A stretch of 41,753 nucleotides of DNA from Candidatus Rokuibacteriota bacterium (GTDB lineage Bacteria; Methylomirabilota; Methylomirabilia; Rokubacteriales; CSP1-6), in the NCBI GenBank assembly GCA_003221515.1, contig QHSI01000088.1:1-41753 (forward strand), in the 5' to 3' direction. Both the position numbers and the translations under genes were made by a program. How positions within the stretch are numbered: position 1 is the stretch's first letter; each line of letters opens with the position of its first letter. The notes under the pieces are model-generated. The model did not search any database and had not been told where the DNA came from. It saw only the letters and a program-made list of their open reading frames with translations. Positions 35,165 through 41,753 of the stretch are shown here, one piece after another.

Positions 35165-36658
<1,494 letters not shown>

Positions 36659-38301: not shown

Positions 38302-39282
38302 TCAGGCCGGGCGGGGGTCCCGCCCCAAGACGTCGAGGGCGGCTACGCGCCAGCCGTCGGCGGCCGAGGTCCACCGAGTCAAGACGACGACCGAGCCAGC
38401 CGACCCGTCGAGCCGCGTCTTCACGAGGTGCTGGTGGCCGAGCCGCGCGAAGGCGACGACTTTGTGTCCGGCGTAATCAGCGGCGCACAGGGTTTCCCAG
38501 GCGACGTCGCCGATCGCCACTCCCGGGGCGAGCCAGTGGGACAGCGCCTTGGAGTCGCGCGCGACGAGCGCCGCCGCAAATCCGCTGAGCGCGTCGCGGA
38601 GCCCTGCCGGCACGGGCCATGTGCCGGTCGCCGTCTCGAGACGGATGAACTCGCGCGCGTCGTCCGAAAGATCGGCTGGGAGCGGCTCGACTGGCGTCAG
38701 GGGCGACGATGGCATCCCGTCGCCCGCCACACCGCCCGCCGCCGCCAGCAGCCCGTCGAGCCGGGCCTGATGCACTCTCGCACGCTCCTTCGCGGCCGCC
38801 GTGCCACCCAGGTGGCCAAGGATCTCCCCGCCCGCGACGATGTGCCTGGTTTCGTCCTCGATGCAGCGCGTGAGGATCCGTCGGGTCGGAGGCTCGTAGA
38901 CCGGATTGGCGCGCGCGAGATGCTCGCGGTAGGTCGCCCGGAGATGCGGCTTGAGAACGGAGTAGACGCCGACCAGCCGCTCCACGGTCTGGTCGGGCGC
39001 CTCCGGCTCCTCGATCGCGTCCATGAACGTGGCGATCGAGGGGTTGGCCGACTCGGACTCTTGGGCGTGGGCGCGGAGCTCCGGCAGCCGCCGGCCGAAC
39101 GCGTCGCAGTGTTGAGCCAGATCCCAGACGTGACGCCCCATCAGGAGCTTCGCGGACAGCTCGGGGGTGAGCGCGATCCAGCCGCCGAGGGCGCGCATCG
39201 TGCGCTCCACGACGTAGCGGTAGTTCCTCAGGAGACGGGCGGAATGCTCGGCGCTGAAGGTTCCTTCGAGGGGCTGCGCCAC
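38302..39282 (-). CDS. Ferritin-like helical protein with C-terminal NTF2-like domain, unassigned
   Basis: 326 residues. The first half (1-about 180) is helical. It carries E26 in the first helix, H51 with H58 (RHVWDLAQH), and an E-x-x-H motif (IEDETRHIVAG, E144/H147), a partial diiron ferritin-like pattern. The second half (about 205-326) looks like an NTF2/SnoaL-like alpha+beta domain (IRLETATG, FAAALVARDSKAL, then strands ending in DGWRVAALDVLG). I do not recognise a named family for the whole protein. GTG at 39282 starts 5 bases after the DUF455 stop; a longer open frame upstream overlaps DUF455 and is not coding. Possibly an oxygenase/hydroxylase-type or iron-binding partner of the DUF455 protein. 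Confidence 0.75.
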   Translation of the reverse strand: MAQPLEGTFSAEHSARLLRNYRYVVERTMRALGGWIALTPELSAKLLMGRHVWDLAQHCDAFGRRLPELRAHAQESESANPSIATFMDAIEEPEAPDQTVERLVGVYSVLKPHLRATYREHLARANPVYEPPTRRILTRCIEDETRHIVAGGEILGHLGGTAAAKERARVHQARLDGLLAAAGGVAGDGMPSSPLTPVEPLPADLSDDAREFIRLETATGTWPVPAGLRDALSGFAAALVARDSKALSHWLAPGVAIGDVAWETLCAADYAGHKVVAFARLGHQHLVKTRLDGSAGSVVVLTRWTSAADGWRVAALDVLGRDPRPA

Positions 39283-39287
39283 GAGCG

Positions 39288-40043
39288 CTAGTAGACTTGC
39301 GACCGCTGGGTCGTCTTGATCAGCCGCTCGATCTCTTCCTCGGTGAACCCGGCCAGGCGCCGCACGTCGGTCGCGATCGAGATCGACACCGCGTCGTGAT
39401 CTCCCTCGCGCCGGACGCCACCGAGGTTGAACCGCTCGTCGATGTTCTCCTGGAACTCGATGGCCCGGCGCCGACGCTCGGCATCGCCCTCGGTCAGCTT
39501 CGTGAGCCACTTCGACCCCATGCGGACGTGGGTGATCTCGTCGGCGAGGACGAAATCGACCGCGCGCTCGAGGACCGGGTCGCCGATCTTCCGGGCGATG
39601 TGGACGAGCTGGTTGAAGACGTCGCACGCCAGCCCCTCGAGGCCGCGGTTGACGCCGGCGACCCGCGCCGCGGCGTCCTCCGCGCACGCGCACCGCCAGA
39701 GGATCGTCGTCTCGGGGAACTCTCCGGCGTAGCCCCCGAGGTGGTCGAGCAATCTCAAGTAAATCTCGACGTGGCGCGACTCGTCCCAGACCTGCCGCGC
39801 CATGTCCATCGTGAACTCCCAGGGCGCATCCGGAAAATCGCACACGCTCCGGCCCGCGCCCTCCATCGCCTGCAGTTCGCCGACCATGATCCCGTGAACG
39901 CGTTCCTTGATGGATTCGGCGCTGGCGAGATCGGGGAACGGCGGAAGACCCTGCGAGACCTTGAGCTCGGCGACTTCTCGCGCGCGCATCCTGACGAACC
40001 GGTCTTCCCGCGCGAGCTTGTCGTAGGCGATCGGACGATCCAT
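39288..40043 (-). CDS. DUF455 ferritin-like protein
   Basis: 251 residues of the DUF455 ferritin-like family (function unknown, related in fold to MiaE-type diiron enzymes). Two E-x-x-H half-sites are visible: PWEFTMDMARQVWDESRHVEIY (D87, E88, H91) and LADEITHVRMG (D168, E169, H172), with E56 and E136 as probable further ligands, the full four-helix diiron set. ATG at 40043 follows GGAGG; the longer open frame upstream runs through the promoter and is rejected. First gene of the four-gene unit ending in the biotin carrier. Confidence 0.85.
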   Translation of the reverse strand: MDRPIAYDKLAREDRFVRMRAREVAELKVSQGLPPFPDLASAESIKERVHGIMVGELQAMEGAGRSVCDFPDAPWEFTMDMARQVWDESRHVEIYLRLLDHLGGYAGEFPETTILWRCACAEDAAARVAGVNRGLEGLACDVFNQLVHIARKIGDPVLERAVDFVLADEITHVRMGSKWLTKLTEGDAERRRRAIEFQENIDERFNLGGVRREGDHDAVSISIATDVRRLAGFTEEEIERLIKTTQRSQVY

Positions 40044-40236: not shown

Positions 40237-41109
40237 CTGGAGATCGTCCTGCAGTTGACGTTGAACGGCCTCGCCGTCGGTTGCATTTATGGTCTGGTGG
40301 CGCTGGGATTCGTCCTCATCTATAAGGCCACCGAGCTCGTGAACTTCGCCCAGGGCGACCTCCTCATGCTCGGTGCCTTCACCTGCTACATGTTCGTCGT
40401 CTGGTATGGCGTCGGTTACTGGCCGGCGTTCGCCCTCGCGATCGCGCTGGTCGGGATCTTCGGCGCCGCGCTCGACGCGATGGTGCTCCGCCGCGTCATC
40501 GGTCAGCCGCAGTTCGCCGTCGTCATGCTGACGATCGGCCTCGGCGCGATCTTCCGCAGCTTCGCGTCGATCGCCTGGGGGTCGGAGATCTACACGCTGC
40601 CAACCCCGTTCAGCGCCAAGGCGACGCGGATCGCCGGCGTCACGGTGAGCCACGAGTACGTGTCCATCATCGTCGGCACGGTGCTCCTGTGCGTCCTGCT
40701 CTACGCCTTCTTCGCCTACACGCGGACCGGCGTCGCCATGCAGGCCGCCTCCCAGAATCAGCTCGCGGCGTACTACATGGGCATCCCGGTGAAGCTGATG
40801 TTCTCGCTGGTGTGGGCGATCTCGGCGGGTGTGGCGGCCATCGCCGGCGTGTTGCTGGCGCCGGTCTCGCTGATCGACATCAACCTGGGGTTCATCGGCC
40901 TCAAGGCCTTCGCGGCGGCGGTGCTCGGCGGATTCGGCTCGATACCCGGCGCCTTGGTCGGCGGCATCGTCATCGGGCTGATCGAGCTGTTCTCCGGGGC
41001 GTATCTACCGCAGGGGTTCAAGGACGTTGCCGCGTACGTGGTCCTGCTCATCGTGCTCGCGGTCCGGCCGCAGGGCATTTTCGGGGCACTCGCCCGGAAA
41101 AAGGTCTGA
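40237..41109 (+). CDS. livH: Branched-chain amino-acid-type ABC transporter permease, LivH family
   Basis: Inner-membrane permease with about eight hydrophobic segments. NGLAVGCIYGLVALGFVLIYKA at the start, FAQGDLLMLGAF, and the C-terminal LGGFGSIPGALVGGIVIGL segment are hallmarks of LivH. The frame extends upstream of the TTG at 40255. The family normally begins with LEI-LQ-L-NGL, and the sequence reads this from a CTG at 40237 that has GGAGG 6 bases upstream. I therefore place the start at the CTG (inference). The real substrate may be an amino acid, urea or aromatic acid; no binding protein or ATPase is in the window. Ends 4 bases before livM. Confidence 0.9.
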   Translation: MEIVLQLTLNGLAVGCIYGLVALGFVLIYKATELVNFAQGDLLMLGAFTCYMFVVWYGVGYWPAFALAIALVGIFGAALDAMVLRRVIGQPQFAVVMLTIGLGAIFRSFASIAWGSEIYTLPTPFSAKATRIAGVTVSHEYVSIIVGTVLLCVLLYAFFAYTRTGVAMQAASQNQLAAYYMGIPVKLMFSLVWAISAGVAAIAGVLLAPVSLIDINLGFIGLKAFAAAVLGGFGSIPGALVGGIVIGLIELFSGAYLPQGFKDVAAYVVLLIVLAVRPQGIFGALARKKV

Positions 41110-41112
41110 GGC

Positions 41113-41753
41113 GTGCGCGTTCTCTTCAAAACCTCCTACACCCAGGACCTCGAGCTCTTCCGCGACGGCGTCCAGCGCAACTGGTACGCAGCCCTCCTGG
41201 TCGGTCTGCTGATCGTGCCTCTCCTGGTGCCGTCGTACCTGGTCGACATCAGCCTCGTGTTCATCTACGGGCTCTGCGGCCTCTCGCTCATGGTGCTGGC
41301 GGGCTACACGGGACTGGTCAGCCTTGGACACGCGGCGTTCCTCGGCATCGGCGCCTACGCCCACGTCTATTTCGTCCACGACTGGGGCTTGCCGTGGGTT
41401 GTGTCGGTGGCGCTCGCGTGCGTGGTGACGGCCGCCGCGGGCGTCCTCGTGGGCCTCCCGGCGCTCCGGATGACCGGGGTCTATCTCTCGATCGCGACAC
41501 TGGCCTTCGCCCTCATCATCCAGGAGATCCTGACCCGCTGGGAACGGGTCACCGGCGGGCTCAAAGGCAAGCCTGTGGACAAGCCCGTCATCTTCGGTGT
41601 CAACCTCGGCGGCGACGTGGCGTTCTACTTCCTCAGCCTGGCGTTCCTGATCGGGGGACTCTGGTTCACCGGCAATCTCTTGAGAGCGCCGACCGGCCGG
41701 GCCTGGGTGGCGATTCGCGACAGCGAGATCGCCGCGCAGTCGATGGGCGTCAA
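41113..41753 (+). CDS. livM: Branched-chain amino-acid-type ABC transporter permease, LivM family (partial at right edge)
   Basis: Second permease, 213 complete codons before the window ends. Membrane segments start at about residue 25; GLCGLSLMVLAGYTGLVSLGHAAFLGIGAY is the LivM signature, followed by GLPALRMTGVYLSIATLAFA and a loop with GGLKGKPV. GTG at 41113 is the first start after livH with GAGG just upstream. The C-terminus is beyond the window. Confidence 0.93.
   Translation, partial: MRVLFKTSYTQDLELFRDGVQRNWYAALLVGLLIVPLLVPSYLVDISLVFIYGLCGLSLMVLAGYTGLVSLGHAAFLGIGAYAHVYFVHDWGLPWVVSVALACVVTAAAGVLVGLPALRMTGVYLSIATLAFALIIQEILTRWERVTGGLKGKPVDKPVIFGVNLGGDVAFYFLSLAFLIGGLWFTGNLLRAPTGRAWVAIRDSEIAAQSMGV

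Follow-up and report, generated by a model that had tools for sequence, protein, structure and literature searches.

A degenerate ferritin-like protein with an NTF2-like half, encoded beside an intact DUF455 protein in Rokubacteria, is a candidate pseudo-diiron subunit

Introduction

Live/dead pairs of ferritin-like subunits are known in a few well-studied enzymes; a literature search on pseudoenzymes among ferritin-like diiron proteins found nothing. According to the available text of two papers, yeast Rnr4 has lost three iron-coordinating residues, forms a heterodimer with Rnr2 and stabilises the Rnr2 diiron centre (PMC2704937; PMC3824934). In phenylacetyl-CoA epoxidase, PaaA and PaaC share one fold, are 17% identical and form a heterodimer, with PaaA as the catalytic and PaaC as the structural member (PMC4498308, in the portion available). 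For the ferritin-like family DUF455 (PF04305), a literature search found no functional paper, and the accessible part of PMC4520260 contributes a fold assignment only, obtained through designed sequences.

Here we describe a gene pair on a stretch of 41,753 nucleotides (contig QHSI01000088.1 of assembly GCA_003221515.1, Candidatus Rokuibacteriota bacterium), which was analysed as a whole and is called the window below. Rokubacteria are bacteria of soil and groundwater. The genes concerned are the following:

38302..39282, minus strand: gene P1, the feature under study; 326 aa, GTG start; a ferritin-like half that is pseudo-diiron by its ligands, followed by an NTF2-like half
39288..40043, minus strand: gene P2, a DUF455 (PF04305) ferritin-like protein of 251 aa with the six-ligand motif; it ends 5 nt before P1
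36949..38295, minus strand: biotin carboxylase (accC-like by Pfam), 448 aa; it starts 6 nt after P1 and is context, outside the module

P1 resembles the DUF455 family in that its residues 38–180 align with the DUF455 neighbour, both by hhalign and in a joint alignment, but it has no Pfam match, lacks the full set of metal ligands, carries an NTF2-like half and does not group with P2 in trees. By analogy, the pair can be likened to Rnr2/Rnr4 as described in the available text, where a ferritin-like subunit with lost ligands pairs with an active relative, although family and reaction are both different. PaaA and PaaC also belong to a different family; their complex has the further subunits PaaB and PaaE, and the available text of PMC4498308 mentions no NTF2-like half, whereas P1 has one. 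This C-terminal half shares the fold of NTF2-like, SnoaL and AtzH-like proteins, from which it differs in sitting behind a ferritin-like domain, and no description of a ferritin-like domain fused to an NTF2-like domain was found in a literature search. The P1 family is nameless in the libraries searched, and by analogy it most likely works like the known pseudo-subunits.

Results

P1 is a real gene and represents a family of Rokubacteria. Strong matches (E <= 1e-60) were found in 47 of 99 genomes, comprising the window's own and those of its relatives, and matches at E <= 0.001 in 49, of which G035 and G068 gave weak matches to the N-terminal half only; the window's genome (5.1 Mb in 191 contigs) has a single match. 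All 13 relatives found in named genomes came from Candidatus Rokubacteria or Rokuibacteriota, in a search that reaches close relatives only, and when 95 genomes of the phylum were searched with a profile, no full-length P1 turned up outside the window's order. The family counts given below refer to 45 distinct orthologue sequences, the truncated copies at L013 and L033 being left out. In six pairs, dN/dS was 0.11–0.24 for the N-half and 0.20–0.60 for the C-half, and both halves are therefore under purifying selection, which is looser on the C-half. It is on these values, on the strong orthologues and on the absence of upstream starts in many of them that we regard the gene as real. A longer version starting inside the DUF455 gene (an ORF of 513 aa) was rejected, since many orthologues hit a stop before any upstream start codon is reached.

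Searches of Pfam and NCBIfam with P1 returned no match at E <= 10, which agrees, for these two libraries, with the preliminary description, made from the raw sequence, whose author knew of no named family with this layout. Twelve members of the family compared with Pfam gave weak matches only, six of them to DUF455 (best E 0.0061) and one to an AtzH-like family (E 0.023, below any cut-off). P2 scored 97.6 bits against PF04305, where the curated Pfam cut-off is 34.3 bits, a score that P1 does not reach. By sequence, the PDB yielded one chance-like match to P1 (E 0.64), and neither P1 nor one of the fused proteins described below had a match among plasmids.

The same description had read residues 1–180 of P1 as ferritin-like and residues 205–326 as NTF2-like. 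This layout is supported by the hhalign comparison with the DUF455 neighbour, by an AlphaFold2 model and by VIA-align; the two halves are real, while their limits shift, to an N-half of about 1–188, a linker of 189–221 and an NTF2-like part of 222–323:

38719..39282, minus strand: N-half of P1, residues 1–188; ferritin-like, with a degenerate diiron site (R30, L55, H58, K111, E144, H147)
38314..38619, minus strand: C-half of P1, residues 222–323; NTF2-like fold with helices followed by four strands, weakly conserved

In hhalign, the N-half aligned with P2 from residue 38 to residue 180 (E 7e-5, probability 63%), while full-length P1 gave E 0.0025 and a probability of 12% and the C-half gave E 0.45. 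With P2 as the query, 10 of 47 P1 orthologues were matched, the best at E 4.5e-6 (in G020), and the window's own P1 was not among them. The AlphaFold2 model of P1, built from 13 sequences, has a mean pLDDT of 62.8, with values of about 75–94 in the C-half, fair values over most of residues 81–188 and values below 50 at residues 1–79, 189–221 and 322–326; helices 1 and 2 of the N-half are therefore not reliably modelled. The best solved fold match of residues 48–195 in VIA-align was a cyanobacterial aldehyde-deformylating oxygenase (5ux2_B, Z 9.2, rmsd 2.6, 114 residues aligned), from which P1 differs in lacking a complete set of diiron ligands. Z values near 9 are common for helical bundles and can arise by chance, so the ferritin-like assignment of the N-half leans mainly on sequence. 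Residues 216–323 matched NTF2-like proteins, with 3d9r_B as the best (Z 10.5, rmsd 3.6, 104 aligned); AtzH (6bju_C, Z 9.1), the CaMKII hub (7rec_E, Z 9.1) and ketosteroid isomerase entries are among the fold matches. Foldseek retrieved nothing for the P1 model at E <= 0.001; the 50 matches listed were nearly all NTF2-like or cystatin-like, with a best E of 1.5e-3. A viral fold search was of no use, its one row at E <= 0.001 having an rmsd of 25. By alignment and model, the N-half can be placed in the ferritin-like superfamily at the level of the fold, and the C-half is predicted to have the NTF2-like fold.

The two halves differ in how strongly they are conserved. Mean pairwise identity among the 45 sequences is 0.66 for the N-half (residues 1–180) against 0.36 for the C-half (residues 205–326), where the minimum is 0.20. 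The few conserved residues of the C-half are mainly G282, K288, R290, R303, W304 and W311; no acidic, His, Tyr or Cys residue is conserved there at >= 0.85, an observation on sequence conservation only with regard to catalytic pocket residues of the kind found in SnoaL and ketosteroid isomerase enzymes.

P1, P2 and other DUF455-like paralogues were aligned together, with few gaps around the ligand positions, and the ligand columns were taken from this alignment. The corresponding residues of P1 are:

39193..39195, minus strand: invariant Arg30, aligned with a conserved Glu of helix 1 (E61 of P2)
39118..39120, minus strand: Leu55 (Leu, Asn or Cys across the family), aligned with the ligand Glu of helix 2 (E88 of P2)
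38950..38952, minus strand: invariant Lys111, aligned with the ligand Glu of helix 3 (E136 of the DUF455 protein P2)
38842..38853, minus strand: motif E144-T-R-H147 in helix 4, whose Glu and His are present in all 45 sequences

In P2 all seven site positions are invariant (42/42). In P1, by comparison, E61 is replaced by Arg30 and E136 by Lys111 in each of the 45 sequences, and E88 by Leu (17), Asn (6) or Cys (22), while H91 corresponds to His58, which is His in 40 sequences, Gln in four and Leu in one. Counterparts of E169 and H172 are present throughout (Glu144 and His147, 45/45 each); both residues are found in the 326-aa translation of 38302–39282 where the first reading of the raw sequence had placed them. 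The other helix-1 Glu of P2, E56, is met by Val (16), Ala (7) or Glu (22), and the adjoining Glu26 of P1 is invariant (45/45). As E56 and E61 are both conserved in P2, the choice of helix-1 ligand is ambiguous, and the mapping of this helix relies on the MAFFT alignment, which has a gap of two residues between the first and the second helix, hhalign starting only at residue 38.

A spacing motif for the six ligands (E, ExxH, E and ExxH with the spacing of the family), sought in the first 190 residues of each P1, occurred in none of the 45 P1 sequences and in all 42 P2 sequences, which agrees with the earlier claim of a partial ligand set in P1 beside a complete one in the DUF455 protein; all 24 of the other DUF455-like paralogues picked also have the motif. 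Shuffling the residues produced it in 30 of 2250 trials for P1 and 36 of 2100 for P2, that is, in 1–2%. Fewer than one of the 45 P1 sequences would therefore have it by chance, and 0/45 is to be read as absence of the site, not as selection against it. Judged by its ligands, then, P1 is not a diiron protein, and its partial set is family-wide and patterned, two carboxylates having become invariant basic residues. What remains of the site may still act, perhaps by binding one metal; it may have a role because Glu144 and His147 are invariant although the N-domains of the fused proteins described below carry Met for this His in 17 of 20 cases.

In 45 of 46 loci (G049, in which P1 is split over two contigs, is left out), the gene directly upstream of P1, on the same strand, is P2; the exception is a contig end. 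The gap between the genes measures −1 to 36 nt in 40 of the 45 and 100–565 nt in the other five. Strong matches to P2 (E <= 1e-40) were found in 46 of the 99 genomes; by strong matches, P1 stands alone in one genome, at that contig end, and P2 in none. This co-occurrence is partly due to shared ancestry and to the fact that one deletion or one missing contig removes both genes. Relative to the window's copies, P2 is 80–98% and P1 44–86% identical, and the lower conservation of P1 may point to a looser partner. The structure model of P2 (mean pLDDT 42.4) was too poor for use, and a PDB match of P2 to CroV588 (E 1.5e-5) was discarded as spurious, that protein being described, in the available text, as a leucine-rich repeat protein.

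An accC-like gene follows within 30 nt downstream of P1 in 39 of the 46 loci, and in the other seven the flank examined has no biotin carboxylase match; given this neighbour, there may be a link between the DUF455/P1 pair and an acyl-CoA carboxylase pathway. Further out in the window, upstream of P2, there are genes for branched-chain amino acid ABC permeases (40255–41751, divergent), but several relatives (L002, L003, L005, L012 and L014) have a different ABC permease set (about 36–41% identical) on the same strand as P2. A gene that looks by eye like a sigma factor of the sigma-70 type (35165–36658) is convergent with the operon, and many relatives have it downstream. In one genome (G051, contig C216, 3–335) P2 is present a second time, as an incomplete copy that is 80% identical over residues 1–111 and runs off the contig end.

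Homologues in which the two ferritin-like domains are joined occur in a second phylum. The P1 profile matched 24 of 251 genomes of the phylum of G098, and all 25 matches listed fall within model positions 2–219 of 323, that is, without the NTF2-like half. Loci fetched from 20 of the 24 matched genomes (G099, G281 and the weakly matched G142 and G188 being left out) all contain a single open frame of 435–576 codons that encodes a P1-like domain and, after it, one like P2. With the P1 model, the N-domains of these proteins score 51–131 bits and the C-domains no more than 3.1 bits; the P2 model scores the C-domains, whereas the N-domains reach 1.3 bits at most with it. The six-ligand motif is likewise divided, being found in none of the 20 N-domains and in all 20 C-domains, although in 11 of the latter the helix-3 Glu lies off the E136 column. 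In the N-domains, Met replaces the helix-4 His in 17 of 20 and the helix-2 Glu is never Glu; the helix-3 position is basic (Arg or Lys) in 12 of the 20 and holds Gly or Val in the other eight, and the E61 position holds Arg or Lys in five of 20 and has kept Glu in four. The basic replacements are thus weaker here, and the full swap to basic residues is therefore a feature of Rokubacteria. Three of the fused proteins scored 29.5–34.7 bits against Pfam DUF455, one of them above the cut-off, and NCBIfam gave nothing of weight for three; in the three fused chains inspected no NTF2-like half was visible.

When a profile of the fused proteins was run on 95 genomes of the window's phylum, its first half fell on P1 and its second half on P2, in adjacent genes, and none of the matches listed spanned both halves. 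The gene order in Rokubacteria, P2 and then P1, is the reverse of the domain order in the fusion, so that a simple gene split does not account for the pair. No gene neighbour was common to the fused proteins among 10 proteins picked from five loci. Matching genomes in the phyla of G095, G096 and G097 numbered 0 of 1, 0 of 101 and 0 of 17, counts that had no positive control and show nothing about absence.

In a first tree (12 of 45 P1, 9 of 42 P2 and 24 paralogues), P1 fell on the side of the other paralogues and apart from P2 with support of 93/81, in an unrooted topology with a long branch of 2.98. In a tree of 48 rows (9 of 45 P1, 7 of 42 P2, 10 each of the 20 fused N-domains and the 20 fused C-domains, and 12 of the 24 paralogues), P1 and the fused N-domains formed one group (100/99) and P2 and the fused C-domains another (93/93), both to be read with a warning about long branches. 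L070 and L081 carry wrong group B/C labels in the first tree and are absent from the second. An origin of P1 as a simple tandem duplicate of P2 is unsupported, P1 siding first with the other paralogues and then with the fused N-domains.

The paralogues include a second DUF455-like family (group A of the first tree; L045 1956–3233 and L046 2643–3368, both minus strand), which has the ligand motif and lies near ORFs that resemble peptide deformylase when read by eye. One member of a third family (group B; L047 2393–3046, minus strand) scores 31.7 bits against DUF455, below the cut-off, and 30.6 bits against Haem_oxygenas_2, above it; by this one member scanned, the two Pfam families seem to grade into each other.

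Discussion

We consider it probable that P1 and P2 form a pair in which the DUF455 protein P2 is the catalytic subunit and P1 a pseudo-diiron one with an added NTF2-like domain. P1 would then be a catalytically dead ferritin-like subunit, and P2, encoded just upstream, would hold the dimetal site and do the chemistry. The site of P1 appears to be filled by positive charge, Arg30 and Lys111 facing Glu144, His147 and usually His58, so that salt bridges, with Arg30 and Lys111 presumably paired to Glu144, would hold it together instead of metals; the NTF2-like half would act as an assembly or ligand-binding module. Both the absence of metal in P1 and a physical contact between P1 and P2 are what we infer. 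That the two ferritin-like parts work together is suggested because P1 stands beside an intact relative and because other bacteria have the two parts in one protein. The preliminary description had proposed one active and one structural subunit in a heterodimer, and this arrangement is made more likely by the fusions in the second phylum, which weigh most among the evidence, and by the strict adjacency of the genes.

P1 might, on the other hand, not be dead. A mononuclear metal site could be made up of His58, Glu144, His147 and perhaps Glu26, or a metal-free reactive site of Lys111, Glu144 and His147, either of which would give P1 an activity of its own and would fit the invariance of Glu26, Lys111, Glu144 and His147 in all 45 sequences, the presence of His58 in 40 and the location of all these residues in the better conserved half. 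Such an activity seems improbable to us, given that two ligand carboxylates have turned into invariant Arg and Lys and a third into Leu, Asn or Cys, and that none of the 20 fused N-domains has an intact ExxH at either position, so that metal binding does not characterise the wider lineage.

It is likewise unlikely that P1 and P2 merely serve the same pathway and form no complex, their adjacency reflecting co-regulation in an operon with accC. The tight gene spacing and the accC-like gene next to P1 in 39 of 46 loci are what a metabolic operon of separate enzymes would look like, but separate enzymes fit less well with natural fusions at all 20 loci fetched from the second phylum, or with a fused profile whose two halves fall on P1 and P2. 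Least of all do we expect the NTF2-like half to be the working part, as a SnoaL- or ketosteroid-isomerase-like enzyme or a binder for which the N-half is only a dimerisation scaffold: its fold matches do include AtzH and ketosteroid isomerase entries, and one of 12 members has the weak AtzH-like match in Pfam, but it evolves faster than the N-half, has few conserved residues and was not seen in the three fused chains inspected.

For the pseudo-subunit reading a fuller history can be sketched, to which we give about even weight. One phylum would have a module of one live and one dead ferritin-like part joined in a single chain, and another would have the two parts as separate genes whose order is reversed. 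In Rokubacteria the dead half would have swapped its ligands for an internal Arg/Lys–Glu–His network and gained an NTF2-like domain; an uncharacterised DUF455 oxygenase or oxidase would depend on this half for its assembly, for the loading of its metal or for the entry of its substrate.

If the pairing proposed here is true, it would give a first handle on function for the DUF455 lineage to which P2 belongs, and DUF455 would add a case to the live/dead pairs of ferritin-like subunits. It would also mean that a pseudo-subunit can be recognised in raw sequence by its partial set of ligands.
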